64,000 nt of DNA from Arctopsyche grandis (taxonomy: Eukaryota > Arthropoda > Insecta > Trichoptera > Hydropsychidae), in contig NC_135365.1 of the NCBI RefSeq assembly GCF_051622035.1, positions 7,099,501 through 7,163,500 of the forward strand, given 5' to 3'. How positions within the stretch are numbered: position 1 is the stretch's first letter; the number at the start of each line of letters is the position of its first letter. Of this stretch, positions 1-19,697 are shown piece by piece. A program made the position numbers and the translations under genes. The notes below the pieces were generated by a model. It saw nothing but the letters and a program-made list of their open reading frames with translations. It was not told the DNA's origin and ran no database searches.

Positions 1-54
1 ATGAATTTCTCCATTTCATAAAAATCTTGTATGGGTGAGAGGGTGGTATTATTA

Positions 55-845
55 TATATAATATTTTTTGAATTAATTATAGTATTATTAATTACAGTAT
101 TTTTAGTATAATAATTATAGCATTTTTACTATAGGTAGTATTTTTGATTATAGTATTATTAATCATAGTATTTTCAAAGTTTTTCTTAGTTTCACTTGTT
201 TTAATTTTGAAATTTAAGTATAATATTTCAAATTATAATACTTTTAGATGTAGTACTTTAAATTGTAATATTTTTAATTATAGTTTATTTATTATCTAGT
301 ATACATATACATTATTTTTAATTTCAATTTAGTTTTTACGTGTTTTACACACAATCAACTAGGAATATTAATATTTTTACTTTAATATAAATTTTCAGAT
401 AGACGGTTATTTTACGAATAACTCGTAACATCAGAAGAAATCACAAAATCTGGATTGGGATCAAAATTGAGGTAAGACAATTATATTCATAATATCGACA
501 TGTTAATATTGAAATATTTAACAAAAACCAAATTTTCGACATAATGAACCTCCCTTTTTCATAATAATCTTGTAAGGGTGAGAGGGTGGTATTATTTTTT
601 GAATTAATTAAAGTATAATTAATTACAGCGTTTTTTATTATGGTATATTAATCATAGTATTGTTTATTATAATGTTTTAAATATAATATTTTTGATTTTA
701 AAATTTCAAAGTATAGTATTTTAAATTATAATATTTTTAGATGTAGTATTTTAAACTCAAATATTTTTAATTATAGTATTTTTAATTTTAATATTTTTAA
801 TTATAGTATTTTGTATAATTATATTTTTAACTTATTATTTTTAAA
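55..845. repeat. AT-rich degenerate tandem repeats upstream of the SecA-like gene
   Basis: Two stretches (about 55-300 and 590-845) are built from variants of TAGTATTTTTAATTATAATA-like units of roughly 12-24 bp. The noncoding exon lies between them. The same arrays occur in unit B at about 12760-13030 and 13370-13650, where the second has about one extra 59-bp period. They are intronic or upstream sequence with no coding potential. Confidence 0.7.
399..471 (+). other. Putative noncoding 5' exon of the SecA-like gene
   Basis: The block is bounded by TTTTCAG at 393-398 and a GAG/GTAAGA donor at 472. It contains stop codons in all useful frames, so it would be 5' UTR. The next acceptor (AAATTTCAG ending at 851) sits 15 bp before the ATG. 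The block is conserved twice in unit B (12545-12618 and 13138-13216) with both splice signals, which supports a real exon. Confidence 0.55.
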
Positions 846-866
846 TTTCAGCGATCCAAAAAAAAG

Positions 867-3800
867 ATGGAAAATTTTGATGGACGGGAAGGATTCCAGA
901 ATGATAGTCGAATCGAGGTGACGAGAAAAACGGTGTTCAGCGAAGATGGCAAACAATACATCAAGGGAGAGTGGCAGGAAAACAATTTAACAAAAATATT
1001 ATCCTGTCAATTTAATACTACGTTCACCGATGAAAAGACGTTTTACATCAGAAATCAATCTCCAGGATATTTGTTTACAATAGATAGTGAAAATTTTATT
1101 GCTCGTGTACGTATTTCAGATACAACTGGTTTATATGTGGAAAATAGCTTTTTGGATAACGGTATCATATATGAGCTTTTACTTAACAGAATTAAAATAA
1201 CGGAAGTTGTAAAAGATGGTTTAATGAATAAAAAGAAACATTGCTACAAAGATTTCATTTCACTTATCAGTGACATTTGCCACAAGATTGGTGATGATAT
1301 CACTGTCAATGATGATATTTTACAAATATATATTGAAATTGGAAATATAAATGAAGTAGATGTGTCATTTAAGAATGCTTTGATTATGAATGAACTTGTC
1401 AAAAATGAATATGTTTCAGAGGAAATCAAAGCTATTGCGAGAACATTCATGAATATATTACGGTCTATTTATAAAAGATATGACATGCTACCAAATATAG
1501 AAATTTCCGAAATTGAGGATTTCAATCTTGCCAAAGAAGTGATAAAAATCATTGGTGAAGGACTAGAACACCATAAAAGAACTTTACATGACAATTATTT
1601 TATTTTTTTCGACAATAACAACTTCAACGATTTATCAGCAAAGCAGCTTCTATTTATAACAAAAACTGACATGAAAATGATTTCAGATCTTGCATCTGTC
1701 TCTGACAATAAATGTTTTTCTAAAATTTTAAACCTGTTACAAGCCTTTTTCATCAAAAATGTTGAAGCCGCTACGAAATACGTTTCTTATAGAAATATGG
1801 CACCAATGTTCAATTCAGTTTCTTATTACATTTTTAAAAGCTTCACTGAGCTTATCGAAACCATAAGCAGTATTACAAAAACATCTGTTGAAAATACTTT
1901 GAATATCATACAAACACATTCTACTATAAACTGGGAATCCCCCTGTTCCTTAGATTTGTCCATGGAAAGACAGTGTCGCTTCATCTTTCAATTGATTACG
2001 TTTTTCAGTAAAGGTTCAAACAAAAAATATGAATACACGTTTAAATTTTTAACGTCTAAAAACGATCAAAAAAAATTTAAGAAATTATTAAATTTAAATG
2101 TCACCCGTCGTATATTTAATGTTGAATTTGCAAGTATACCAGAAGACCGACGCATATGGTTATACTTACTCGATGATGCAATGTCCATAGAAAGGAATGA
2201 TAAGTGTTTTGAAAATTTTCAACCCGTGTTGTCTGATTTTGTGAATTACATCAGCAAATCCGATAGCTCTTTGGAAGTATTTCGAAACTTCACCCACAAC
2301 CTCATACAGTTTATCGTAAGTGCAAATCCTTATCTAAAAAACAAAATTTTGGAAGGAGACCGAAGTATCCTGGTGCAACAGATGGAGCATATCAAGCGAT
2401 TAACAAGAGATTTTCAAATTAATAACGACGCATTTGTTAGTCTGAGAAACGTGATTGAAGAATATAACCAGTACTGGAAAAGAAAAGAAACAATTATACA
2501 AAAAATCGATTGTACATTTGATTATGAACCACACAAATCGAAAATGAATGCGCTGTCTCATAAATTACGTGAAATAATCTTAAATGTCCTTCGCAAAAAT
2601 GTAAGTCCATCTAAACTCATAAGGTTCTTTAGATCGTACAATGAGTTTTTAGATGATTTTGATGATATAAATTTTGATTGGTTCGTTAAGATTCAAACGA
2701 GTGAGAATACCATAATGAATCCTAAGATTGGTGAGACGATAGAACTAGTGAGGAATAAATTATCTCACGGGAAAGCTTCTTACAAAGTAACAAAGCCTGA
2801 ACTGTTTTTAAAGCACTTTGAGAACACAGACGATCGCCATTACATCATCGAAGTGCTTGAAGAACTGATTAAATATGTAAATGAACTTTTGATTAAAACA
2901 CAATGGTTAAATAATCATGACCTAAGCGATGACGAAAATGTGATGGCTTCCAGTCTGCTGATTTCGGCCATAAAAAGTTCTTTTCTTTATTTGAAAGAAC
3001 AACCTGACTATATTTCGTTCGAATCATTCCTCGAAGATAGCACGAAGCCTTTTGCTAGTCTTATACGAAACAGCAATTCCTACGAAGACTTTGAGAAGCG
3101 GTCGACTGTGGTAAAGCAATCTTTTTGGTACATAAGAAAGCAAGATGAGATTAATATTGATGAGGCTTTAAAACTTTACAATCAGCTGTCGTATAACAAA
3201 ATACTCGTCGAGGATTCTGAGATTTTGAAGACTTGCTACAAATATTACTTGGAAGAGTATGAAAAATGTATGGGAGAATGTTTAGGAATGCTGCAAGAAG
3301 ATAAAATTAAATTCCTAGTCGATGGCTTGAACAGCACCAAGACGAATTTGAAAATAAAAGAGTGGACATCTGAATATAAAAGGTCACAATTGCTGTACCA
3401 GCTTGCTTGGTTAGCTGCTTTGTGGTCCGTGCTAGTTTCGAAGGATATCGAATGCACTAAAAAGTATTTAAAACCACATTGCATTCAAATACTATGCATT
3501 TTGTTAATGCTTAACGTAGAAAGTAATGCCTCACTTGACAATAAATGCTTCGCACAAGTCTTAACTGGTCAGGGAAAATCTTTAATACTGGGATTGCTCT
3601 CATCTTTGTTAGCGCTCTCGGGACACGAAGTGGCTCTGATTTGTTACAGCAAGTATTTGGCGAAACGAGACGATGAAAGCTTTGCCCCGTATTTAGGGAC
3701 ATTGGACATCCTGTCTAAGATAACTTATGGAACATTTGAAGATATGTCTAATAAACTGATTGCTCCTGTATTAAACAAAAAAACATACGGGTTACGGTAT

Positions 3801-5219
3801 CTGGTTAAAAAAAGAGTCTGTGAAGACGATAATTTTAAAATTTTGAATACACCAAACAATATGACCGATACTGTATTACTGATTGATGAAGTTGACGTGT
3901 TTTTTTCGAAAGAGTTTTACGGCAATACCTATAATCCATGTGTCAGCATTGAAATGAAAGCCATCGCCGATATACAGTTAAAAATATGGGGTTTAGTTAA
4001 AGAACGTTGTAGTAAAATTACTGTTGTGAAAAAGGTACAAGAGTATATTCAATTTGAATTAAATTCAGTAAATGAAGAGTTTTTAAAATTCGAAGAATTC
4101 AGATGTAGACCTAATGAATATTTACTTTTGGTAACTGCTGACAATAATACCATCACGGAAAAGAAATATACAAACCGAACTCTATTTAATGAACATCTCC
4201 ACGAAATGATTGATTGCGCGATAAGTGTGTCAATAGAAAATGATAATTCGAAATTCAATAAAAAATTTAAATTGACTGATAATGGAAATATTTGTTTCAG
4301 AGAATATGACGGTATTTACTATGAAAATTTCCGTTCGTATTATGATGTGTTTTGCTATTTCAAATTGAAGAAAGTTAATTTCAACACTAACAATTACACT
4401 AACTATGGCTATTTAACGATAGACAGTGGACAAATTTCCTATGCAAATTTACCAAAGCAGTATTCTTGTATGCTTGGAGTCACTGGCACTCTCGTGTCAT
4501 TGAACGATTACGAAAAACAGACAATCCATAATATTTACAATGTAAAGAAAACATTCAGTATGCCATCTGTATTCGGGGCCTCTAATTTAAAATTTGACGA
4601 AAAGGCCGATTTTGTCGTTTTGAATACAAAAGCAGCCTGGTTTGAAAGGATATATTCCAGTGTAAGTTCTCAAATTGCCAAAGACAGGTCAGTTTTGATA
4701 TTCTTCGATACAGATATTGAAATAAACGAGTTCATAAAAGAGCACGGGGGTAAATTTGACCGGTTAAACGTTTTAACTGGCAACACTAATGCTGACGAAG
4801 TGGAACGATTGATTGAAGAAGCCGCCATTTCTAAAACAACCACACTGGCAACTAGGAGTATGGGTCGTGGCGTTGACTATAAATCCAGTGTCCGTGTGGA
4901 GAAAAATGGTGGTTTGCATGTCATACAAACATTCTTTTCACTTGATATCAAAGAAGAGATTCAAATTAAAGGGCGTACCGCTCGTAAGGATAATAAAGGT
5001 AGTTATGAGTTGATTACTCTTCTTAGTGTACTGATAAATTCAAATTTAGTGACTAGAAAGACTAATAAAGCCAGAATAGATTACCAAGTACTAAATAGTG
5101 CTAGGCATGATCAAGTTAATGTTCAAGGAATAAAAGCTTTGGAATCAGTTATGAAAGCTGAAGATAATCATAACAAAACGATGCAATATTTAAAGTCTTT
5201 TTACTGTAACACTGAATAA
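867..5219 (+). CDS. SecA-like DEAD-motor ATPase, 1450 aa, single coding exon
   Basis: The C-terminal ~570 residues read as the SecA superfamily-2 motor. Walker A is TGQGKS at 900-905, where bacterial SecA usually has GEGKT. It is followed by a YLAKRD string near 930. Walker B is LLIDEVD with D1007-E1008, GVTGT is at 1204-1208, SMGRGVDY at about 1331-1338, and QIKGRTAR at 1366-1373. Residues 1 to about 880 are charged, probably helical, and match nothing I recognise. I see no signal peptide, membrane segment or SecA C-terminal zinc-binding tail. The start is chosen because ATG 867 lies just after a good splice acceptor and begins the frame shared with unit B. SecA in bacteria drives preprotein export through SecYEG; eukaryotic cytosol has no such pathway, so the role here is unknown. 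Noncoding introns, insect SINEs and a tandem copy argue against bacterial contamination. Assignment to the SecA motor family is firm; function is open. Confidence 0.88.
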   Translation: MENFDGREGFQNDSRIEVTRKTVFSEDGKQYIKGEWQENNLTKILSCQFNTTFTDEKTFYIRNQSPGYLFTIDSENFIARVRISDTTGLYVENSFLDNGIIYELLLNRIKITEVVKDGLMNKKKHCYKDFISLISDICHKIGDDITVNDDILQIYIEIGNINEVDVSFKNALIMNELVKNEYVSEEIKAIARTFMNILRSIYKRYDMLPNIEISEIEDFNLAKEVIKIIGEGLEHHKRTLHDNYFIFFDNNNFNDLSAKQLLFITKTDMKMISDLASVSDNKCFSKILNLLQAFFIKNVEAATKYVSYRNMAPMFNSVSYYIFKSFTELIETISSITKTSVENTLNIIQTHSTINWESPCSLDLSMERQCRFIFQLITFFSKGSNKKYEYTFKFLTSKNDQKKFKKLLNLNVTRRIFNVEFASIPEDRRIWLYLLDDAMSIERNDKCFENFQPVLSDFVNYISKSDSSLEVFRNFTHNLIQFIVSANPYLKNKILEGDRSILVQQMEHIKRLTRDFQINNDAFVSLRNVIEEYNQYWKRKETIIQKIDCTFDYEPHKSKMNALSHKLREIILNVLRKNVSPSKLIRFFRSYNEFLDDFDDINFDWFVKIQTSENTIMNPKIGETIELVRNKLSHGKASYKVTKPELFLKHFENTDDRHYIIEVLEELIKYVNELLIKTQWLNNHDLSDDENVMASSLLISAIKSSFLYLKEQPDYISFESFLEDSTKPFASLIRNSNSYEDFEKRSTVVKQSFWYIRKQDEINIDEALKLYNQLSYNKILVEDSEILKTCYKYYLEEYEKCMGECLGMLQEDKIKFLVDGLNSTKTNLKIKEWTSEYKRSQLLYQLAWLAALWSVLVSKDIECTKKYLKPHCIQILCILLMLNVESNASLDNKCFAQVLTGQGKSLILGLLSSLLALSGHEVALICYSKYLAKRDDESFAPYLGTLDILSKITYGTFEDMSNKLIAPVLNKKTYGLRYLVKKRVCEDDNFKILNTPNNMTDTVLLIDEVDVFFSKEFYGNTYNPCVSIEMKAIADIQLKIWGLVKERCSKITVVKKVQEYIQFELNSVNEEFLKFEEFRCRPNEYLLLVTADNNTITEKKYTNRTLFNEHLHEMIDCAISVSIENDNSKFNKKFKLTDNGNICFREYDGIYYENFRSYYDVFCYFKLKKVNFNTNNYTNYGYLTIDSGQISYANLPKQYSCMLGVTGTLVSLNDYEKQTIHNIYNVKKTFSMPSVFGASNLKFDEKADFVVLNTKAAWFERIYSSVSSQIAKDRSVLIFFDTDIEINEFIKEHGGKFDRLNVLTGNTNADEVERLIEEAAISKTTTLATRSMGRGVDYKSSVRVEKNGGLHVIQTFFSLDIKEEIQIKGRTARKDNKGSYELITLLSVLINSNLVTRKTNKARIDYQVLNSARHDQVNVQGIKALESVMKAEDNHNKTMQYLKSFYCNTE

Positions 5220-5221
5220 CC

Positions 5222-5675
5222 AGCAACGTGGACTAGTGGTTAGCATATATACTTTCGAACATAGTGGTCACGGGATTGAGTCCCACTGGTTGCTGCTGGC
5301 CAGACCTTGATTTGTGACTCCAGGTCGGTGTTTCCTATTAGAGTTTGCCAATTTATCTAATTTTCATTGAAACGGTTCCAACAAATTTGCAACCTTTACC
5401 CATTTCTCCCAATTTTAGAGTTTTCAGCTTCCGAACTTTGCTGATTCGTATAAAAATGCTGCATATTTGTTCATGAAATTTGACGATTTATATAAAAAAA
5501 TTGATCCGAAAATGTAAGTTTATCCAAAAATGTATCCATAGAGTTATCTATGTATGTATGTATGGTGCATTGTTAAAATTATTCGAAAAATTGTATTTCA
5601 ATGTTTGTAACTAGCCAGGAAGGCGCATTCGGGTTTACGTGTTAGGCCTTCTTGGTATGTATATGTATGTAAAAA
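5222..5675 (+). mobile_element. tRNA-derived SINE inserted at the stop codon of the SecA-like gene
   Basis: A tRNA-like head carries an A box (GGACTAGTGGTTAG) and a B box (GGGATTGAGTCCC). A body follows with GAGTTTGCCAATTTATCT and GAAACGGTTCC, and the family 3' end is GGAAGGCGCATTCGGG...GGCCTTCTTGGTAT. It starts within 3 nt of the TAA at 5217-5219. Unit B lacks it: there the sequence runs directly from CTGAATAA into CTGTTTTCCTTC. The insertion is therefore later than the duplication, and it now forms the start of the 3' UTR of this copy. The head differs from that of the other SINEs here, so it may be a subfamily. Confidence 0.85.
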
Positions 5676-5998
5676 AAAATGTTTTCCTTCTTTTATTATA
5701 GTAAATGTGTATTTAACTATGGTACATCACTATAATGATTTTATTATATGTGAGTACATATATATACATTTTTTTTTTACTTGTTATAAAAAGATTGTAT
5801 AGATCTGGTTGAGGTACATACGTATATGTATGCATATTGTTTTGTGATAAGTATTAATCATTTTACAGTTCCTAAAAACACCATTTTGTATTGCTATTTT
5901 CGAAATTACTTATTACTGATCGAAATTACTATTATTAGTGTGAGAGTTAAAACGAATCCAAACGATGATGCATATGTATACATATTTATTTATTTAGA

Positions 5999-6500
5999 AA
6001 TACTTGGGTGAGACGGCGTAGCCGATGGACCAAAAATATATGTATTTATTTTCGATGTGATATATGTATGTAAGTAAGTAATGTAAGATTTCAACATTGT
6101 AATAATTTTATTGCTTAAATGTTATAATACAGTATTAGATACATGAATTAAAAAAAAAAAGTATAAAAACATGTATAACGTAGTCTATAAACAATAAAAA
6201 GTATTTCAAAATAAAAAAAAAATACTTGGGAGAGGCGGTTAACTTAAGAACAAAATATATTTATTTATTTTCAATGTGATATGTAAGCTTTCATAATTGT
6301 AATAATGTTATTGCATACACGTATTTGAAGAAAATGTATTTATAAACAATAAAAATAATTTCAAAATCAAAGAATACTTAAGAGTAGTTGGCATAGCCGA
6401 TGGACACAAAATATATGTATTTATTTTTGATATGATATGTAAGTTTTCATCATTGTAATAATATCATTGTTTAAATGTTATAATACAATATTGGATATAT
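5999..6500. repeat. Three diverged tandem repeats (~130-220 bp) 3' of the SecA-like gene
   Basis: Units begin AATACTT(GGG/AAG) with a GGCATAGCCGATGGA-like string and continue through ATATATGTATTTATTTT, TCATTGTAATAAT and TAAACAATAAAAA. Starts lie near 5999, 6221 and 6373. Each unit carries AATAAA strings that could act as polyadenylation signals. The array is shared with unit B. Confidence 0.7.
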
Positions 6501-6599
6501 TTGAAGTTTGTTTTAACTTATTTTATTAGCCAATATTATTGTTGGTAGTGAACGACAGTCTCATTGCCATCAATCCCAATGATGTTTAACTTCAAAATC

Positions 6600-7147
6600 A
6601 CAGCAAGTTGGAAAGATACTCTTGTTTCTTTCTTTTTATGAAGCATATTTTTTTATATAAGACCATGGAGTCAAAGGATGGAAAGATTTTAATGTACTAT
6701 GCAGTAAGTATTAAGGCGCATTGGGTTTACTTGTTAGACCTTCTTGGTATAAATATATAAATAAAATTTGAAATCCAGCAATCGGCATTAACCAGTGGTG
6801 TAGTCGGGGCAGGTCGCCGCTCTGGCACTTTGATTGATATGAAAATTGTTTTATGAGTAAATTTAAAAAATATTTTGGCTAATATTACTAACACTTGAGA
6901 TGAGAAGAATAAGAGGCGACTTAATTGAAGTCTTTAAAATAATATATAATCATCATAATTGTCCTATGTCCAAACTCATTACGTTCAATGAAAACACTCA
7001 TCTCAGAGGTCACACTCTCATACTCCAAAAAGAAAAATCGAATAAATTGATCAGATATTCCTTCTTTTAAGAGTGGTTAAAATTTGGAGTAGTCATGGGG
7101 TTAATGACCCTCGCCCTAGAAATTACATAATGTACATACATACTTAT
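6600..7147. other. Spacer with SINE and hAT fragments
   Basis: No gene is visible. A diverged SINE 3' end lies at about 6712-6755 (GCGCATTGGGTTTACTTGTTAGACC). A hAT-like end, CAGTGGTGTAGTCGGGGC, starts at 6793 without a partner I could find. Confidence 0.5.
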
Positions 7148-7588
7148 CAGTGGCGTAGCTACCGCGCCCGCAGACCCCGCAATGCGGGGGGCGCCGAGAC
7201 CTGGGGGGCGCCACAAAGCACCCTTTTGAACGTCAGTGCCACTTTTCAACCTATTTGCTGAGAATTCTCTCTTATTCTTATATATCTTTTTTCAATGTGT
7301 AAACAATAAAAAAAATTATAACCAATAAAATTTCGCTGTCACCATTAACAGGTGGGAAGTTTTTAAGGAAAATTCACCATCAGTTACTTAAAACAGATTG
7401 TGCACTGCTTGTTGGTCGTCCAGATTAAACTATTAATGTACTTCGATATATAGGTACATATACCGATACGTAAAAAAGGTATAAATTATTAATTTGGAAA
7501 GTTGTTTTGCTGTAAGTAAATAATATGAATATATGGGGGGGGGGGGGCGCCTTAAAATATTATGCGGGGGGGCACCAGGAATTCACTG
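7148..7588. mobile_element. hAT-like MITE with exact 8-bp TSD
   Basis: The element starts CAGTGGCGTAGCTACCGCGC and ends ...GGAATTCACTG. It is flanked on both sides by ATACTTAT (7140-7147 and 7589-7596), the 8-bp duplication typical of hAT. Both ends are G/C-rich with GCGGGGGGCGCC-type blocks in inverted orientation, and a 14-base G run lies near 7535. No transposase is encoded. Confidence 0.85.
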
Positions 7589-7596
7589 ATACTTAT

Positions 7597-8277
7597 ATAT
7601 GTAAAATCAAAATTATATATTTTTGTTTGTGTAATTCAGTTAAAATAAAGTTTTACAAATAAATAAGCTAATAATAATAATTTTATAACAGATTAAACGT
7701 TTTATTATTGAAAAAAATGTGTTTGTATTACAAATAATGAATGGCCCCCACCCTACCAATTTTCTGGACCCGCCCCTGCTTGCTAGCATATTAAATCTTA
7801 CACATAGTGCTCTTCTTTGCCTTTAGATGTCACAATTATCGAAGATATTCTCCATCAGCAGGCAAAAATTGTAAATAACTAATCCAATTTTTATACGATT
7901 AATATTACCTATGATTGGCAGCACTAGACGGGCGCTTAATATAGCTATGGGATGATCCGCTACTGCGTATGGGTTATGGGTGCTGTGATTATTCCGCACA
8001 AATCGATCTCGCACACGTCACTAAAATCACGATCACGGAATATTTGAGACCTGCAAATTCCATTCACCGAAAGCAGGGCCGTGTGGCAGATTTTCTCAGT
8101 ATGATACAAGTCTTTGAGATGCCGCCCCCAAAAAATGTTTATACCTTCGATTGTTATTTAAACTGCACAAAATGTACGAATGCTATTTTTATTTTGAAAA
8201 TACAAAATACTTTAAAATAATGATATCAACTATGACAATCAACTACAACAATCTGCTGTAACAATGTAACATGTAAC
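7597..8277. other. Spacer, no gene recognised
   Basis: A hAT-like terminus (TTCTGGACCCGCCCCTG, about 7761-7777) is present without a clear mate. Short open frames at 7969-8220 show no domain or splice context. Confidence 0.45.
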
Positions 8278-8363
8278 CAGTGGTGACATCCCAATTTTGG
8301 AACAACGAGTTTCCAAATTTTTTTTTCAAAAAATTTATTTTGAAAATATGTATATATGTACAT

Positions 8364-9538
8364 CAGCGGTTTCCAAAGTGGGAGGCGCACCTCCCTGGGG
8401 AGGCGCGGACTATTGCCAGGGGAGGCACCAAAACTTTTTAATAAAAAAATAATTTTCATACCATAATATCTACAAATAAATAAAACTTCATATCGTAGCT
8501 TAACAGTAAAAATTCAATGCATGAATGTTTATATTTATTTTTCTTTCATTTTTATATATACATTTAATTAGCAACCTTTCTCGAAGAAAACCAATATGAA
8601 GAGGCACATTTGTGGACGAACGATAATTTTATCGTTAAACTTACCTATTTGGTTGAAATTTTTGGAAAATTGAGCGGTTTAAATAAATCAATCCAGGGAT
8701 CACAAATACATCCACTTGTTCAAAAAGACAAAGTAAAAGCTTTCATTAAAAAGTTGAAGTTATGGAAATCAAATTTACAAAAGAATGAGTTGGATATGTT
8801 TTCACTTTCCAAAGATTTCTGGGCCACAGCCAATATTGAAGCAATTAAAAATCTTTTTACTGACCACTTGAATGGTTTAGTGCTGCATTTTTCCAATTAT
8901 TTCAAAGACCTTGATGCCTCAAAGTTTTTGTGGATACAGAATCCGAAATCCTACAATGAAGAGGACGAATTCGAGCTGACAACCATCGAAAAAGAAAAAT
9001 TGATAGAATTATCATGCGATAGCTCACTAAAACAAAAGTTTCAAAATGAAACCATAATTAAAATTTAGATGAATCTTAGTGGAGAGTATGAATCTTTGTA
9101 TTGCAAAGCAATGCAAGTGCTTCTGCCGTTTGTAACTTCTTATTTATGCGAAACGGGCCTTTCGGCACTAGCTGCAATGAAAACCAAATATCGAGCCAGA
9201 TTAATAGTCGAAAAGGAGTTATGAGGGGCACTCCCCATATTGCCCCCAAGATTTGATAAACTTTGTGCCAATAAACAACAACATCCTTCGCATTAAATTT
9301 TGATGTATTAGATGTAGTTTAATTAGTAATTTAATATAAAAATAAATATACGTGTTCGTATAAATTTATGTTATAGCAAAACCTTTTTATTATTCTGTCT
9401 ATTTTAGTGCTCAGATTTTTTTTTAAATAAAGGTTTATTATTTAAAACGTGTCTATATTATTATATCTATTAAAAAATATAACGTAGGGAGGCGCAGAAA
9501 AAAGGGAGGCGTAGTAGCATAAAGTTTGGAAACCGCTA
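8364..9538 (+). mobile_element. Inner hAT element (Charlie/ZBED5-like) with transposase remnant
   Basis: The termini are CAGCGGTTTCCAAAGTGGGAGG at the left and TTTGGAAACCGCTA at the right, both next to GGGAGGCGC-type repeats. Flanks ATGTACAT (8356-8363) and ATATACAT (9539-9546) match at 7 of 8 positions. The element sits inside another hAT element and encodes the transposase fragment at 8577-9296. Confidence 0.85.
8577..9296 (+). pseudogene. hAT transposase C-terminal fragment, broken by two stops
   Basis: The open stretch 8610-9065 reads like the middle and C-terminal part of ZBED5/SCAND3-type hAT transposases: a YLVEIFGKLSGLN-like string, then KVKAFIKKLKLWK, then WIQNPKSYNEEDEF. After an in-frame TAG (9066-9068) the same frame continues as the hAT dimerisation region, with LLPFVTSYLCETGLSAL and MKTKYRARL. 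A TGA interrupts it at 9222-9224 and the frame closes at 9294-9296 with no frameshift. The N-terminal BED finger and first catalytic residues are missing. It is a decayed, internally deleted transposase that cannot make full-length protein. Confidence 0.85.
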
Positions 9539-9705
9539 ATATACATAGATACAATTATTTTTTTCGTCCAAGGCACATTTACATGAAAGTTCATTAAATT
9601 TTCAAGATATGTATAATTTTTGACAAAATTATATGAATTTTTAGATTAAATAACGGGTTTCCGGAAACCCATGGAAACCATTAGGGTGACACCACTGCAT
9701 GTAAC

Positions 9706-10365
9706 AATGACTGTAGTTGAAGTTAAAAGAGTAAAACTGTAGTAACTACAGTTTTACCCTTAATTACACCTCGTAATTCTTAAGATCATTTTCATTTATA
9801 TCTGATTCATTTTCAACCGCTAGTATTGACTGAAGACTAGTACAATAATTTTCTAGCGTTTTTCACCTATATCTTTGAGTTTTAAAACGTCATATAAAAA
9901 CTGAAAAATTTTGATATGGGTTTCCAGAAGCGTTAATCGTTAATTCAGAGAATTAAGGGTAATGTCCAGAATATAGTTGAAATATTTTATTTTAAATTTA
10001 TTCTCCTGTTTTTTTTAATCATTCAATAAATGCTGTGAAATGACTTGGACCTTTCATTTGGATCCCAAACGCAATAATACGCTACAATATTACATATTAC
10101 CGATTTTCGTTTAGCGATAACTATTGTCAGTGTGCGATCGCAACGTGCGAAATAATCCGTTTATTGTATTTATTATATGTATGAATTTTCTTTATAAGAA
10201 ACTAGTTGACTTTTAAGTATGAGTAAAACTATCAATTTAGAATGATTCATGAAATAGCTCCCTGTTCCATGGTTTGAATTTTTTTAACACGAGGAAATTG
10301 TTCGTTTTCGTGTATTTATTTTATTTAAATGAAAAAAAATTGTAACAAATCCGGATACATACACA
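9706..10365. other. Spacer, no gene recognised
   Basis: AT-rich sequence with a short hairpin near 9735-9765 (GTAAAACTGTAGTAACTACAGTTTTAC). Nothing else can be supported. Confidence 0.4.
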
Positions 10366-11767
10366 CAGTGGCATTGCGTGGGAAGTGGGTGCGTAATTTA
10401 ATTAAGGTATTTTTTTAATTTTTCATATGGAATATTTTATTAAAATTTTATTTGTTTAAAATTGGGTATTTCAATTATCATATTACTGAAAAATTAAAAC
10501 TTTGTTTTCTTGTTAATAGTTTTTACTTTATATATGTACGTAGTAACAATAGATGAAGTTTTGTGATCATGCGAAAATTCGAACTCGAGATTTTGACTGA
10601 TAGAATCGATTACTGATCACGTTTTCATGATCTAGAAAAAAATGTGTGTCTGTGTGTATTTTGGGGATTTTTTGAACAGTCCAGAACAGAACAATCGAAT
10701 TAAAACTAGGTATGGATTACTGAAATTCTTATCGATACGATTTAATTATATTTCAAATTTTTAAGTTGACCAGAAATGGTACCTCCCCTTATACATATGT
10801 ACATAGGTGTCCTCTTTTTTTGAGTTTTTGAATTCAATTATCGAACGACTAAATAACTAAATCGAACTGAATTTTTTTAACATATAATAGAAATAATAAT
10901 CTTTATAACCTTATATTTTTTAAATATTTTTATCTGAACCGGAAGTAGTACTTTTACTCTAGAGAATCGAGGTTTTTTATGGTTTTCTAAGAAACCTTTT
11001 GGTTTATTGAACTGAAATTTCATGTCTACAAGTTTAAGCATAATACCAAGTTAATTCTAAAATTTAGTAAGCATCCCTCAACTAGAAGTGGCAGTTTACT
11101 CTTTTGCGATTTTTCTGCCACTATTTTTTTCGACTCCTTAAACATGTGTTCTTCACGAAAAAATTCAAATATAATTCTTGTATCAATGTGATGAAAATTA
11201 AAAAAATCACTAAATTTAATAAACCGGAAGTGGGATTTTTTCCTCTTAGAAAGGTCAAAAGTGTTGTCGTCTGGATTCTGTCCATACCCCTGAACGTATT
11301 AAGCTCAAAATTTATATTTGTATTATTTATGTACTTTAGAGCTGCTAAAATTTTAGTCAGAATTCATAAACCGGAAGTAGTATTTTTTTTTAAAACAATA
11401 TTTCATTATTTTGTTTTGACCTTTTAAATTATTTTTATTTTCTTGATATTTAATGTGTACTTGACAGTGATTTTAATTATTGAATAAAATCCGACAACCG
11501 GAAGTAGAACTTTTCTCTTGTGCAAGTTTCCATACATTTCTGCTCAATTTGTATCGCCATCAAAGTCATTAGTATTTTAAATCTGTATGTACGGTTCAAT
11601 ATCGAATTTTGTTTTGTGACCTTTTTATATTCCTCAAATACATAGATAAAGTCATGGGTTGGTCACACCCGATTTTTTTTTATTTCATCCACGAGAAATG
11701 TTGGGTTGGTAAGGGCTTACACCCCGACTTGCCACACAGGATAGTACCTACCCTTGTGACGCCACTG
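10366..11767. mobile_element. Probable hAT-like element with internal repeats
   Basis: The left end is CAGTGGCATTGCGTGGG and the right end is CCTTGTGACGCCACTG. Flanking octamers CATACACA (10358-10365) and CATAGACA (11768-11775) match at 7 of 8. The inverted termini are short (CAGTGGCRT). Most of the interior is the degenerate repeat array at 10770-11520. No transposase was found. Confidence 0.55.
10770..11520. repeat. Degenerate ~145-bp tandem repeats with an ACCGGAAGTRG core
   Basis: A motif close to ACCGGAAGTAGTACTTTT recurs near 10770, 10938, 11082, 11223, 11371 and 11498, about 130-165 bp apart. It is preceded by similar AT-rich text each time. The units are strongly diverged. Confidence 0.6.
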
Positions 11768-11834
11768 CATAGACAAGTTCATAAATCGTTAAATCGACTA
11801 GGGCTGCCCAACCAGTCGTCCACGGCTTGATTTT

Positions 11835-12535
11835 AAGTGGATCTTTGCTCCATTCTTAAAATGTACTTACATACATACATATGTTGACAAATATTACCTG
11901 AAAATATCTGAAACACAAATTACATATTCGTTGTGCATACGTTTCAGATAAATGAATGATGTAACATATCGATGTGCATATGTACATATACATACATTAA
12001 TATACATATAGATTAATACCCAATCTTAACGAATGCGACACAAAAATCGATCTCTTGCTCTACGGGTCTACGTATTTGGCCGAATCTGTTTTTCTAATAG
12101 AACAATAGATTATTAAATATGAATATTATAAAATCGGATACACGAAATTCTTTGAACGATAAAAATCTTGACTAATGTCTTTTAGTGAATATCTCTTTCA
12201 TTGTAAATCCCAAAAATATTTCCAAATCCGGGGAGTGTCAACGATCTGTTGTAGCATAGACTATGCTTATTTTTTAAATTGTAATTTTTTCATAAGCATT
12301 ATATATTTTTTTACGTTATATAAAACATATCCCCCCATCTCTGTATGTTTGTAGATTGCGATAATTTTTTATAGAAAATAGTTGTACGAAAATATTAGGT
12401 TTATACCAGGGCAGCCGAATTACAAAAAGGTTTGGCTTCCCTGTTATAAACTATCGAGAGTATACTTTTTTCCAAAAATAAACATGTCTTTTAAATACTA
12501 TAAACTAAGAATTTTAATATTTATACTCATTATAT
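11835..12535. other. Spacer, no gene recognised
   Basis: AT-rich, with TACATACATATG-type simple-sequence patches (11860-12010). No feature can be supported. Confidence 0.4.
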
Positions 12536-12544
12536 AAATTTCAG

Positions 12545-12618
12545 ATAGATAGTGATTTACAATAAAATCGTATCATCAGAAAACAAGTCACAAAATCTGG
12601 ATTGGGATCAAAATTGAG
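12545..12618 (+). other. Noncoding exon homologue, first copy in unit B
   Basis: It corresponds to 399-471, with TTTCAG before it and GAG/GTAAGAC after it. It is diverged (TAGTGATTTACAATAAAATCG in place of ACGGTTATTTTACGAATAACT). Confidence 0.5.
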
Positions 12619-13137
12619 GTAAGACAATTATGTTCATAATAACGACATGTTAATATTCAAATATCTAAAAAAAAAATTTCGTCATAATGAATTTCTCCAT
12701 TTCATAATGATCTTGTATGGGTGAGATGGTGGTATTATTATGTATAATATTTTTTGAATTAATCATAGTATTATTAATTACAATATTTTTTATTATAGTA
12801 TATTAATTATAGTATTTTTTAATATAGTATTTTTTATTATAGGTAGTATTTTTGATTATAATATTATTAATCATAGTATTTACAAGATTTTTCTTAGTTT
12901 TAATTTTTAAATTTTCAAGTAGGTATATGTAGTATTTCAAATTATAATATTTTTAAATGTAGTATTTTAAATTGTAATATTTTTAAATGTAGTATTTTAA
13001 ATTGTAATATTTTAAATTATAGTATATTACTTATCTAGTATACATATACATTATTTTTAATTTTAAATTAAGTTTTTACGTGTTTTACACACAATCAAAT
13101 AGGAATATTAATATTTTTACTTTAATATGATTTTCAG

Positions 13138-13216
13138 ATAGACAGCTACTTTATTTTACGATAAGCTCGTAACATCAGAAAATAATCACAAAATCTGGAT
13201 TGGGATCAAAATTGAG
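13138..13216 (+). other. Noncoding exon homologue, second copy in unit B
   Basis: It corresponds to 399-471, with TTTTCAG before it and GAG/GTAAGAC after it. It is closer to the unit-A exon than 12545-12618 is. A short internal gain (TTATTTTACGATAAGC) makes it 79 bp. Confidence 0.5.
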
Positions 13217-13673
13217 GTAAGACAATTATATTCATAATATCGAAATGTCAATATTGAAATATTAAACAAAAACCAAATTTTAGACATAATGAACCTCTCT
13301 TTTTCATAATAATCTTGTATGGGTGAGAGGGTGGTATTATTTTTTTGAATTAATTAAAGTCTAATTAATTACAGTGTTTTTTTATTATGGTATATTAATC
13401 ATAGTATTGTTTATTATAATGTTTTAAATATAATATTTTTGATTTTAAAATTTTAAAGTATAGTATTTTAAATTATAATAATTTTAGATGTAGTATTTTA
13501 AATTCAAATATTTTTAATTATAGTATTTTTAATTTTAATATTTTTAGATGTAGTATTTTAAATTCAAATATTTTTAATTATAGTATTTTTAATTTTAATA
13601 TTTTTAATTATAGTATTTTGTATAATTATATTTTTAATTTATTATTTTTAAATTTCAGCGATCCAAAAAAAAT

Positions 13674-16373
13674 ATTGAAAATTTTGTTGGACGGGAAGGA
13701 TTCCAGAATGATAGTCGAATCGAGGTGACGAGAAAAACGGTGTTCAGCGAAGATGGCAAACAATACATCGAGGGAGAGTGGCAGGAAAACAATTTAACAA
13801 AAATATTATCCTGTCAATTTAATACTACGTTCACCGATGAAAAGACGTTTTACATCAGAAATCAAACTCCAGGATATTTGTTTACAATAGATAGTGAAAA
13901 TTTTATTGCTCGTGTACGTATTTCAGATACAACTGGTTTATATGTGGAAAATAGCTTTTTGGATAACGGTATCATATATGAGCTTTTACTTAACAGAATT
14001 AAAATAACGGAAGTTGTAAAAGATGGTTTAACGAATAAAAAGAAACATTGCTACAAAGATTTCATTTCACTTATCAGTGACATTTGCCACAAGATTGGTG
14101 ATGATATCACTGTCAATGATGATATTTTACAAATATATATTGAAATTGGAAATATAAATGAAGTAGATGTGTCATTTAAGAATGCTTTGATTATGAATAA
14201 ACTTGTCGAAAATGAATATGTTTCAGAGGAAATCAAAGATATTGCGAGAACATTCTTGGATATATTACGGTCTATTTTTAAAAGAAATGACATGCTACCA
14301 AATATAGAAATTGCCGAAATTGAGGATTTCAATCTTGCCGAAGAAGTGATAAAAATCATTGGTGAAGGACTAGAACACCATAAAAGAACTTTACATGGCA
14401 ATTATTTTATTTTTTTCGACAATAACAACTTCAACGATTTATCAGCAAAGCAGTTTCTATTTATAAAAAAAAATGACATGATAATGATTTCAGATCTTGC
14501 ATCTGTCTCTAGCAATAAATGCTTTTCTAAAATTTTAAACCTGTTTCTAGCCTCTTTCATCAAAAATGTTAAAGGCGCTACGAAATACGTTTCTTTTAGA
14601 AATATGGAACCAATGTTCAATTCAGTTACTTATTACATTTTTAAAAGCTTCACTGAGCTTATCGAAACCATAAGCAGTATTACAAAAACATCTGTTGAAG
14701 ATACTTTGAATATCATACAAACAAATTCTACTATAAACTGGGAATCCCCTTGTTCCTTAGATTTGTCCATGGAAAGACAATGTCGCTTCATCTTTCAATT
14801 AATTACGTTTTTCAGTAGTACAGGTTCAAATAAAAAATATGAATACACGTTTAAATTTTTAACGTCTAAAAACGATCAAAAAAAATTTAAGAAATTATTA
14901 AATTTAAATGTCACCCGTCGTATATTTAATGTTGAATTTGCAAGTATACCAGAAGACCGACGCATATGGTTATACTTACTCGATGATGCAATGTCCATAG
15001 AAAGGAATGATAAGTGTTTTGAAAATTTTCAACCCGTGTTGTCTGATTTTGTGAATTACATCAGCAAATCCGATAGCTCTTTGGAAGTATTTCGAAACTT
15101 CACCCACAATCTCATACAGTTTATCGTAAGTACAAATCCTTATCTGAAAAACAATATTTTGGAAGGAGACCGAAGTATCCTGGTGCAACAGATGGAGCAT
15201 ATTAAACGGATAACAAGAGATTTTGAAACGGATAACAAGAGATTGAGAAACACGATTAAAGAATATAACCAGTACTGGCAAAAAAATGCAACAATTATAC
15301 AAAAAACCGATTGTAAATTTGATTACCAGTCACAGAGATTGAGAATGAAAGCGTTTTCTAATCTATTTCATGAAACAGTGTCGACTTTCCTCTTTGAAGA
15401 TGCAAGTCCACCTAAACTCATGCAGTTATTTAGATTGTACAGTGAGTTTTTAGATGATTTTGATAAGATAAATTTTGACTTGTTCATTAAAAGTCAAACG
15501 AGTAAGAATATTAATTCTAAGGTTGGTGAGGCGACGAAACTAGTGAGGAGTAATTTATCTCACGAGAAAGCTTCATACAAAGTAACAAAACCTGAACTCA
15601 ATTTAAATGAACTTTTGATTAAAAACCAACGTTTAAATGCTACAGAGTGCGGTGGAGTGTCGGATAAAAATACAGCCCATTGTAATAAAATTATGAAGTG
15701 CGGCCAAAACATAACAGAAATAATCAACAAAATGGCCAAAATGTTGGCGGATCCTTCCAATAAATTCAGCAAGGAACAAATGGTCAAATTTTTGCCATTT
15801 ACTACTGATATTTCAAAACAGATTGATGATATGTCAATCAACATTGCTATGTTGGATGTCGAGATGTCTGAAACCACGACATACAGTCACAGAGAGGCTC
15901 CTAGAATGAAAGTAATAAATAAAACAATTAATAAATTGGAAAGTAGAAAAAAAAGAGAAAATAACGTAATGATATATAATTTAATTGATACTGGGAACAA
16001 TAACGACGACAAAAAAGAAATTTCCAATATACTATCAAAAGTAAAAATACCTGGTGAACAAAAATTTACTGCACATAGGCTGGGATTATACGATGGAGCA
16101 AAACCACGACCTTTAAAAGTAAAGTTTAATGACAAGCAAGCGGCTATATTGTTGATACAAAAAGGTCCAAAGCTAGGATTCAAGATAAAACGAGACCAAT
16201 CACTTGTACAAAGACTACATTTAAGTAAACTGATTGGTGAATTAATATTCAGAAAAAAAAACGGTGAAAAAAACTTAACTATCAAATATGTTAACCGAGT
16301 ACCATTAATAACCAAAAAATATATTTCAAAAAACTCTCATTTCGCTAATAAAACATCAAACGCTCAAAATTAA
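13674..16373 (+). pseudogene. Chimeric SecA-like copy: N-terminal half fused in frame to a LINE ORF1-type segment
   Basis: The frame aligned to unit A begins at 13674 with ATT where A has ATG (ENF-GREGFQN follows). The next in-frame ATG lies about 170 codons downstream, so normal initiation is lost. From there to about 15638 it follows the non-motor N-terminal region of A closely, with no stop and in-frame indels. After KNQRLN the sequence becomes unrelated: a polar, coiled-coil-prone stretch, then KRENNVMIYNL, then RLGLYDGAKPRPLKVKF, then LTIKYVNRVPLI. This order (helical region, RNA-recognition-like domain, C-terminal domain) resembles ORF1 proteins of non-LTR retrotransposons. The whole ATPase motor is missing. 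An uninterrupted ~900-codon frame across the junction is notable; it is either recent decay or a fusion using a non-AUG or alternative start. I call it a pseudogene because the start is lost and the tail is degraded. Confidence 0.7.
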
Positions 16374-16542
16374 AAATTCAATATCTAATAAATTCTATAG
16401 CGACTTCTTCATATTATATTACTTTTTTTACCGAAACTTGGCAAAAAAATATATTTACACATGTATGATAAATATATCAATAACAACAACTTTATACCTG
16501 TGTTAAAGGTTTTAATTTTAAATATATATTTGGTAATAAACG
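15639..16542 (+). mobile_element. LINE ORF1-type retroelement fragment inside the SecA-like copy
   Basis: The borders are set by loss and return of alignment to unit A: it departs after 15638 (A about 2916) and returns at 16543 (A about 4616). The coding part ends at TAA 16371-16373 and is followed by about 170 bp of AT-rich sequence. No poly(A) tail or target-site duplication is obvious. Because 1.7 kb of A has no counterpart, simple insertion is not enough; a deletion or template switch must also have occurred. Confidence 0.6.
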
Positions 16543-17138
16543 GTTTTGAATACAAAAGCAGCCTGGTTTGAAAGAATATATTCCAGTTTAAGTTCTCAAA
16601 TTGCAAAAGACAGGTCAGTTTTGATATTCTTCGATACATATATTGAAATTAACATGTTCATAAAAGAGCATGGGGATAAATTTGACCAGTAAAACGTTTT
16701 AACCAGCAACACAAATGCTGATGAAGTGACGATTGATTGAAGATGAAGCCATTTCTCAGACAACTTCACTGGCAACGAGGGGTATGGGTCATGGCGTTGA
16801 CTATAAATCCAGTGTCCTTGTGGAGAAAAATGGGGGGTTTGCATGTCATACAAACATTCTTTACACTTGATATCAAAGAAAAGATTCAAATTAAAGGGCA
16901 CAGCGTGCGTAGGAATAATAAAGGTAGTTATTAGTTGATTACTCTTCTTAGTGTACTGATAAATTCAAATTTAGTGAGTAGAAAGACTACTAAAGCCAGA
17001 ATAAATTACCAAGTACTAAATAGTGTTAGATATAATCTAGTTAATGTTCAAGAAATAAAAGCTTTAGAAACAGTTATGAAAGCTGAAGATAATCATAACA
17101 AGACGATTCAATATTTAAAGTCTTTATACTGTAACTGA
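16543..17138 (+). pseudogene. Degraded 3' tail of the SecA-like copy
   Basis: It aligns to codons about 1250-1450 of the unit-A gene (TKAAWFERIYSS and IQIKGHSVRR are recognisable). It is broken by a TAA where A has CGG (near 16690), a frameshift near 16725-16740, and TAG in place of the ATG of GSYEL... near 16932. The conserved GRTAR of motif VI reads GHSVR. It cannot be part of a functional motor. Confidence 0.8.
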
Positions 17139-17448
17139 ATAACTGTTTTCCTTCTTTTATTGTAGCATTGTGTGTTTAACCATGATAAATCATTATATTA
17201 ATTTTATTACATATTTAAGTATATCCATTTTTTTAAACTTAATAATAGAAAGATTAAATTTCTAGTTGATAGGTACATATGTATGTTTGTGTACTAAAGT
17301 AAATGTATTGTTTAGAAATTAGTATTCATCATTTTACAGTTATTAAAAATAACATTTTGTATTGCTATTTTCGGAAATACTTTCTGTGTGTGAACTAAAA
17401 AGAATTGTAACAATGATACATATGTAATATACATATTTATTTATTTAG

Positions 17449-17900
17449 AATACTTGGGAAACACGGCATAGCTGTTGGACCAAAAATATATGTATTTATT
17501 TTTGATGTGATATTTATGTATTAATGTATGCAAGTCAGATTTTAATATCGTAATAATTTAAATGCTTACATGGTATAATACAGTATTGGATACATGCATT
17601 TGAAGAAATAATTTTGTAAAAATATTAAAAGCAAAAACAATAAAAAGCAAAAAGGTGGATATCCGATGGACCCAAAATATATGAATTTATTTTTGCTTAA
17701 ATGTTATAATATAGTATTGGATATATGTATTTGAAGAAAATATGTTTTAATTTATTTATAAACAAATAAAAATACTTGATAGTGGCGGCATAGCCGATGC
17801 ATACAAAATATATGTATTAATTTTTCATATGAAGTTTTCATCATTGTAATAATTTCATTGCTTAAATGTTATAATACAGTATTGGATGTATTTGAAGTTT
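17449..17900. repeat. 3' tandem repeats of unit B
   Basis: Counterpart of 5999-6500: AATACTTGGGAAACACGGCATAGC at 17449, a shortened middle unit near 17654 and AATACTTGATAGTGGCGGCATAGCC at about 17770. Confidence 0.65.
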
Positions 17901-17999
17901 GTTTTAATTTATTACCTTGAAATAAATGTTTTGTTAGTAGTGAACGACAGACTCATTTCCAGCGTACATGAATCCCAATGTAATTTTTTTCTAACTTAA

Positions 18000-19279
18000 A
18001 AATCGAAAAAGATTTCAATAAATCAATATAAAAATAATATGTAAAAAACATGTAGAAGAAATACCATGTAAAAGATGAATAATATGAACCGTGATGATGT
18101 TATTGAAAACCTTTGATGGCCTAGACGGGGCCTCCTTTGAATTGAATTATTTTCATGATTTTATATTTTAATTCAGTCGAACAGAAAAATTAATTGAAAT
18201 TAATATGAAATTCTGAATATCAACAAAGCATTATTGAGGATGACGTATGTACATATGTTATTATTTAATTACATTCATAATAGCTTTGGAATTGCCGCAT
18301 ATCATTAATGAAAATAGATTATAAAATGAAAAATGCCTCAACGTCCAACTAATTTGAAATTTCTCCACGTCTGTATAATTGGCTGGCGAAAAAATTAAAA
18401 TAAAGTAATTTTGCAAATTATATTCAATTTCAATTCATTAATCTTATACTTGTGTTATTATTATGCATTTTTAAAAATTCTATTTTTAAAAAAATAATTG
18501 TGAATGATACAAACTTGTATTAAGATTCCATCATTATATATATTTTGAAGAGACCAGTATTTACTAATATGTATGTATGTACATAGGGTCTATTTCTTTT
18601 AGACATAATTTTCAAAATAAAAATTAATTTTAATACTTTGTGGTGCAATCTATGAAGGAATGTGATTTAAATTTATAACAAAAAAAAATCAAAGAAATTA
18701 TTAGAAAATAGCATATAAAAAAACATACATTAAATTTAGTGTAAATGCCTTTTTGTTCAAGATTTAAATACCTACACAGCAGACTTACTCCTCAGTTTTA
18801 ACTCAACATTTCTTCTTCCACCTTATACAGAACTTATCAGAAAATAAATACATAGCTCTCCAGCACACATCCATATGTATATCCTGATCCAACAACTTGC
18901 AATCTAATGTTTATACTTGATAGAAAATTTTTTGTAAAGGTATACAAAAACTTGTTTTTGGTCAAAATGACTGATTTTAGTTCATATCCCGGTATCCCAA
19001 TACGGCCAAAACTTTACACGTCAAAATTATCATTATCTCTTAGCCATTATTATGTAAAAAAGTAAATTTTTGTGTCAAAATTGTGTTCTTATTCAATAAA
19101 TAGCAAATGGACAGTATAAAAATCTAACGAACATTCGTCAAATAACAATGCCTGTTAAAATTTTATATCAAGATCGTACCAACCTTGTATATTGTCCATT
19201 TAATATAAATACTGACCTTTCGTATTTAAATACTGACAAAATACTTATTACTAAAATACGAGCCTATATTATATTGAGT
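18000..19279. other. Spacer, no gene recognised
   Basis: AT-rich intergenic sequence. I found no convincing exon, terminal inverted repeat or tandem array. Confidence 0.4.
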
Positions 19280-19600
19280 TCGGTGATTACTAGTCATATG
19301 TGAACCGGTCACAGGACAACCGGTCGCTCTAGATCGGTCACACGTGATCACCCGTCACACTAAAACTGGTCACGGGAAAACTGGTCACACCCTAAAACTG
19401 GTCACACCTGAAAATTGGTCATGAAAAAACTGGTCACACCCAAAAATTAAAAATTGGTCGAATTTTTGGGTGTGACCAGTTTTCTCGTGACCAGTTTTAG
19501 GGTGTGATCAGTTTTAGTGTGACGGGTGATCATGTGTGACCGATCTAGATCGAGCGGTTGTCCTGTGACTGGTTCACATATGACTAGTAGTCCGTTTACC
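19280..19600. repeat. Palindromic element built from GGTCACAC-type units (copy 1)
   Basis: The two halves are inverted copies. The left begins CGGTGATTACTAGTCATATG and the right ends CATATGACTAGTAGTCCG. Each arm contains about five short direct repeats of ACTGGTCACACC or GACCGGTCACA around a small centre (AAAAATTAAAAATTGG). A second copy lies at 58430-59554. It lies about 100 bp upstream of the ATG of the first ZAD gene. Confidence 0.8.
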
Positions 19601-19697
19601 ATTAAATTGGCTATGCTCAATTTTTTTAGAATTCAGAGATGCAGTTGGTACCATTAGCTGTCAATCGAGTCTTCTGTCAACTGTCAATTTGCATATT

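Follow-up and report, generated by a model that had tools for sequence, protein, structure and literature searches.

A SecA-like gene and its broken sister copy in a nuclear chromosome of the trichopteran Arctopsyche grandis

The stretch of Arctopsyche grandis DNA analysed here (contig NC_135365.1; 64,000 nucleotides, called the window below) carries near its left end an intact open reading frame (ORF) for a SecA-like protein, P0001, followed by a second, broken copy of the same gene (Table 1). SecA, which drives proteins across membranes in bacteria, has long been regarded as a bacterial and plastid engine. An earlier note, made from the letters alone, had described the locus as a bacterial-type SecA motor in an insect nuclear gene, joined to a long N-terminal region of no recognised kind. 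At the base composition of the ORF, a run of 1450 open codons would arise by chance with a probability of about 1.6e-53.

Table 1. Features of the P0001 gene, its second copy and the adjoining repeat (positions in the window)
Feature	Positions	Strand	Remarks
Probable noncoding internal 5' exon	399..471	+	73 nt; acceptor 397-398, donor GTAAGA after 471
Probable 5' intron	472..851	+	380 nt; TTTCAG ends at 851; placed by sequence signals
P0001 ORF	867..5219	+	intact, 1450 codons (1450 aa), SecA-like protein
N-terminal ~870 residues	867..3476	+	no domain recognised
Motor half 1 (NBD1)	3480..4541	+	residues 872-1225; Q874, Walker A TGQGKS, DEVD, TGT; SecA fold in model
Motor half 2 (NBD2)	4542..5081	+	residues 1226-1405; GRGVD at 1333, QIKGRTAR at 1366
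C-terminal helix	5082..5207	+	model H707-748 = residues 1406-1447; position of the SecA scaffold's start
Dispersed SINE-like repeat	5277..5414	.	directly 3' of the P0001 stop codon
Copy 2, 5' region and N-terminal part	12687..15615	+	89% identical to 1-2819
Foreign ~900-nt segment in copy 2	15639..16542	+	replaces the middle; Walker A, DEVD, TGT region lost
Copy 2, 3' end	16543..17143	+	90.7% identical to 4617-5220

The ORF and the core motor motifs named in the earlier note were borne out by residue positions and by matches in Pfam, NCBIfam and the PDB. P0001 contains SecA-type NBD1 and NBD2 with Walker A, a DEAD-type Walker B and motifs V and VI (TGQGKS at residues 900-905, DEVD at 1007-1010, TGT at 1206, GRGVD at 1333 and QIKGRTAR at 1366), and the catalytic motif letters are complete, with Gln replacing Glu in Walker A; NBD1 also contains a divergent PPXD-like stretch. 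The Pfam model SecA_DEAD matches with an expectation value (E) of 1.4e-9, above its cut-off, P-loop_SecA and Helicase_C reach 2e-4 each, each under its own cut-off, and the NCBIfam SecA models go down to 6e-18, every one far under cut-off. SecA chains in the PDB match at E 1e-10. In the first motor alignment a deletion appeared before TGT, which by eye is more likely a misaligned divergent segment; in the NBD1 return segment the GLHQ letters are, also by eye, missing.

The wing/scaffold domain of SecA (PF07516, SecA_SW) gave no Pfam match in P0001 at E<=1, and the ORF stops about 80 residues past motif VI. As controls, PF07516 was found in both of two canonical proteins, in none of three accessory proteins and in none of three plasmid proteins. 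The preprotein cross-linking domain (PF01043, SecA_PP_bind) likewise had no Pfam match in P0001, and its matches in accessory proteins were weak (two of three); the model of the P0001 motor aligns through this region, but at low confidence. In fold comparison SecA entries are ahead by 3 to 9 Z units and match the model from NBD1 to NBD2 in order; since the model was derived from aligned SecA-like rows, its fold is biased towards SecA. A non-SecA helicase family, raised by the earlier note as the contrary case, is ruled out, SecA leading in both the sequence and the fold searches. The same lead and order argue against a motor that has turned into a nucleic-acid helicase or sensor, in the style of RIG-I or DEAD-box proteins, instead of a polypeptide motor, as does the lack of any helicase accessory domain in the Pfam results for P0001, and we regard this alternative as quite unlikely. 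The motor is thus, as modelled, a SecA fold of two RecA domains. It is not a full "bacterial-type SecA", because the wing/scaffold is absent and grouping with canonical proteins is rejected on the whole motor, though not on NBD2 alone (see below).

The region ahead of the motor remained without any recognised kind, as had been claimed. Residues ~1-870 had no significant match in Pfam (best DUF2605, E 0.15) or the PDB (best an FtsH fragment, E 0.77) and no match in NCBIfam or PHROGs; residues 1-870 matched none of 84 bacterial-relative loci at E<0.1 (two matches stood at E 0.2) and none of 55 relative ORFs at 1e-3. A match of residues 528-644 to a Bandiella protein (E 0.002 against that protein alone, 0.2 against the 84 loci) was set aside as likely coil. 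The structure prediction proposed by the earlier note was run on residues 1-880 from an alignment of two sequences and gave an unusable model (predicted local distance difference test score, pLDDT, 32.5). On balance, the region is best explained as fast-evolving.

Chromosomal residence is indicated on several sides. The noncoding 5' exon and 380-nt intron of the earlier note form a plausible, probable spliced leader as judged from sequence signals, and the 73-nt exon with both signals was found twice more, upstream of copy 2. The claimed short interspersed nuclear element (SINE) neighbour was also supported, since parts of 5277-5414 recur at seven other sites, on both strands, in 6501-64000; this repeat directly follows the stop codon, and copy 2 has no such insert at the corresponding position. 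The hAT neighbour was not upheld, its ORF at 8568-9065 having no Pfam match. The window further holds centaurin-alpha exons with PH domains in Pfam (PDB 3feh at 1e-27) and, also by Pfam, C2H2 zinc-finger genes, a GNAT domain and a zf-AD exon (E 5.7e-6; 26.9 bits, just below the cut-off of 28). zf-AD is an arthropod domain, and because of this match the host is, from sequence, very probably an arthropod or insect. The window itself reads as a eukaryotic nuclear chromosome, and the SecA-like best matches together with these neighbours uphold the claim that a eukaryotic nuclear gene encodes a SecA-type motor. Mis-assembly of symbiont DNA into an insect contig would account for a bacterial-looking motor and for nothing else; the intron signals, the SINE-like repeat at the stop codon, the foreign insert in copy 2, the stretch shared with centaurin-alpha, GNAT and zinc-finger genes, and the G+C fraction of the gene's bins (0.26-0.34, inside the window's range of 0.23-0.46) speak against it, and we treat it as rejected.

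The 5' intron and its flank (window 60-840 and 12690-13665) are made up of short AT-rich repeats whose copy number is not the same in the two gene copies; ahead of copy 2 the unit that bears the exon is present twice.

Copy 2, which the earlier note does not mention, has ATT in place of the start ATG. Its 600-nt 3' tail is broken by two stop codons and three out-of-frame gaps, and motifs V and VI are altered there. The first 243 codons of its foreign segment continue in frame; this segment had no Pfam match and by eye resembles the ORF1 protein of a long interspersed nuclear element (LINE). Across the joint with the LINE-like segment, 911 codons are open at 13638-16373, with no ATG at the old start.

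Comparison of the two copies gave a ratio of nonsynonymous to synonymous rates (dN/dS, omega) of 0.50 in the tail (32.5 nonsynonymous, N, and 16.5 synonymous, S; 198 codons, leaving out those at which copy 2 has a gap or a stop), as expected if copy 2 drifted while copy 1 was conserved, against 1.07 in the N-terminal part (657 codons; 107.5 N, 25.5 S). The motor end therefore looks constrained, and the N-terminus free or positively selected. Within residues 1-350 there are 30 nonsynonymous changes and one synonymous; so few synonymous changes (S<=1 of 31) arise under simulated neutrality with P 0.003, a post hoc value, the segment having been picked after scanning along the gene. Residues 351-500 have 5 N and 6 S and residues 501-650 about 64 and 17, a mosaic that suggests gene conversion. 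These ratios bear on whether P0001 is a decaying or neutral passenger, that is, whether it belongs to a transferred family, underwent a chance duplication and lost its use only recently, its open frame being a leftover. The N-terminal omega, the broken sister, the Walker A Gln where 54 of 54 relative ORFs carry Glu, and the missing GLHQ letters would suit such a gene; it is nevertheless unlikely, given the tail omega, the retention of the remaining motif residues and the absence of any stop in 1450 codons, compared with the stops and gaps of the short copy 2 tail.

Bacterial relatives are numerous. Eighteen plasmid records matched P0001, and the first accessory relatives came from plasmids of Megaera and Bandiella (Euplotes symbionts), Legionella geestiana and Rhizobium. 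Scanning genomes with a motor alignment of four rows yielded at least 585 pattern matches, of which 352 were confirmed and 80 kept. Among the 55 ORFs inspected many are giants, up to 5028 codons (open end), from Legionellaceae, Rickettsiales, Chlamydiae, Amoebophilaceae and others. The motor alignment also found two giants in the viral contigs of IMG/VR, where a search with P0001 itself returned no relative; a phage collection had 11 records with matches, all inside P0001 residues 1190-1428. Long bacterial matches to P0001 are about 20-35% identical, and identity rises to 43-51% over stretches of 57-69 residues.

The two IMG/VR contigs (L085 and L086) are near-identical and encode SecA-like proteins of about 3556 residues; either they are carried by viruses or they stem from symbionts and were classed as viral. 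The Megaera plasmid (L001:1-10778) has two adjacent genes annotated SecA-like, of 15.7 kb and 4.8 kb; the pair, possibly a two-gene unit, echoes the Wolbachia pairing of wBol1_1091 and wBol1_1092, a long and a longer gene.

The motif letters divide these relatives. Walker A reads GKS in 18 of the 22 giants, in all 10 other accessory rows and in none of the 21 canonical-type rows, so the earlier reading of TGQGKS as a family difference holds for the Ser; the Gln is so far private to P0001 (all 54 ORFs with a Walker A have Glu, by a pattern open to any letter at that position). GRT[AS]R is present in 16 of 22 giants, in 0 of 10 other accessory and in 0 of 21 canonical-type rows, three of the latter having been misread by the pattern. 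Most giants thus share the TGxGKS and GRT[AS]R letters with P0001, together with large extra regions and, in the five scanned with Pfam (L024, L010, P0003-P0005), the lack of a wing/scaffold. They differ in their N-terminal regions (HEAT in P0004), in a motor that often lies mid-protein, and in the low identity of the long matches. Canonical SecA and SecA2 share the fold and the ATPase motifs, whereas P0001 has neither SecA_SW nor a Pfam match to SecA_PP_bind and is kept apart from them on the whole motor.

The presence of such a gene in an insect is not new in kind, insect SecA-domain genes having been known since 2013 (PMC3639933). According to that paper, the Wolbachia gene wBol1_1091 (4488 nt) matches proteins of Culex and Aedes over its full length, with only mosquitoes matching its 5' half, and wBol1_1092 has full-length matches in Harpegnathos and a near full-length one in Daphnia; further SecA-domain matches lie in Drosophila willistoni and Tribolium, and Daphnia and Harpegnathos form large SecA-domain clades. 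The same paper judges most annotated introns spurious and argues for transfer from eukaryotes to Wolbachia. P0001 has the layout given there for the arthropod family, with the SecA domain 3' and no bacterial match 5', and shares its nuclear residence in an arthropod. Compared by description, wBol1_1091 is likewise a long gene (4488 against 4353 nt) whose 3' half encodes the SecA domain; it differs in that it appeared neutral between two Wolbachia strains (PMC3639933). Passages on phage WO list SecA among domains nearer to invertebrates than to bacteria (PMC5062602), and the SecA domain of wHa_3920 / wHa_3930, of the eukaryotic association module, is nearer to invertebrate proteins (PMC5062602, PMC9203015); these genes, likened to P0001 by description, sit in a prophage and not in an insect chromosome. 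Open-literature searches, in short title listings, returned no title announcing a functional study of an insect SecA-like protein.

A recent transfer into this insect from a present-day symbiont, Wolbachia or Rickettsia, would agree with the SecA-like genes described in wBol1-b and wHa (PMC3639933, PMC5062602), one of them similar in size and layout by description, and with the best tblastn match of the motor among the 84 loci, which is a Rickettsia endosymbiont (33% over 236 columns). It is very unlikely in view of the low identity of the long bacterial matches, the lack of a bacterial match to residues 1-870 in the 84 loci and the 55 ORFs, and the probable spliced leader, the SINE-like repeat and the tandem duplication.

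The best explanation, with a probability of roughly 0.6, is that P0001 is an intact nuclear copy of an arthropod SecA-like gene family, with a motor akin to those of symbionts and an old residence in its host. Its identity and family are highly likely. Kinship of the motor with symbiont SecA-like proteins is fairly probable, a grade lowered slightly because a canonical-type row outranks the giants pairwise. In the motor-alone tree suggested by the earlier note (54 rows: P0001, 22 giants, 10 other accessory and 21 canonical-type), the giants form a starred clade (100/98), whose members include Legionella, Rickettsia, Midichloriaceae, Parachlamydiaceae and Amoebophilaceae. P0001 is drawn beside this clade, outside it and unstarred (81/63 in this tree, and 88/76). 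Forcing P0001 with the 21 canonical-type rows changes the likelihood by -24.6 log units and is rejected on the whole motor by the approximately unbiased test (p-AU 0.00126). Its branch measures 3.68 changes per site, and because of this length and the bacterial identity of only about 20-35% in long matches, an old inter-domain transfer of a SecA-type motor appears supported in outline, as the earlier note had proposed.

Several results weigh against this explanation. The eight best pairwise totals among the 55 ORFs belong to the "other" accessory group (Legionella, Neisseriaceae, an elusimicrobium and a Ruminococcaceae row), not to the giants, and a canonical-type planctomycete, L019, is ninth (99.3 bits, in two pieces), above the best giant (98.2); the giants' best single alignments begin at P0001 residue 818, with E 1e-19. 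This ranking speaks against simple descent from giants. The P0001 branch is very long and falls in no starred set that covers half the rows or fewer, NBD2 alone does not reject the canonical-type grouping (p 0.055), and the tree groups were named only after the tree had been seen. To these are added the bias of the motor model and the N-terminal omega, which gives no sign of constraint.

For an old arthropod gene of this family, the motor would have a common origin with the "effector-type", or accessory, SecA-like proteins passed around among intracellular bacteria, and long residence in arthropods may have led to the strong divergence, the probable spliced leader and the local duplication. 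By analogy with SecA, a polypeptide clamp would open and close as ATP is bound and hydrolysed between NBD1 and NBD2, and the N-terminal region may choose the target; lacking scaffold and wing, the protein would act off the Sec channel, as a cytosolic motor that remodels or extracts proteins. The odds that the substrate is protein and not RNA are about even. The spread of these genes among arthropods and their symbionts is the reason for considering a part in the conflict between the two, which is doubtful. One step further, a tamed bacterial translocation motor might act in the cytosol against intracellular bacteria, as a weapon or as a sensor; this joint claim, that the clamp unfolds proteins recognised by the N-terminus and that the N-terminus diversifies by tandem duplication and by positive selection (because of the 30:1 ratio in residues 1-350), is decidedly improbable. 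In the Rickettsia endosymbiont of Labidopullus the relative is flanked by genes for an ankyrin-repeat protein and a Fic protein, which fits a host-directed role of the bacterial kin and says nothing direct about the insect gene. SecA-type motors kept by arthropods and traded with Wolbachia and its kin would amount to a second use of SecA without a channel partner, and the window contributes an intact gene beside a broken sister, a natural control for measuring constraint.

Rfam had no match anywhere in the window. A search of 1-20000 for mobile-element ends (inverted pairs, arms >=40, seed 14) listed five pairs, one AT-rich at 13415-13486 and four at 19285-19592. The latter interval consists of nested inverted repeats of a CTGGTCAC-rich unit, with arms of 89 and 61 nt that are 93% and 89% complementary. 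On the minus strand, a 257-codon open frame at 37012-37785 had no Pfam match and by eye resembles a fragment of an insect chemoreceptor.

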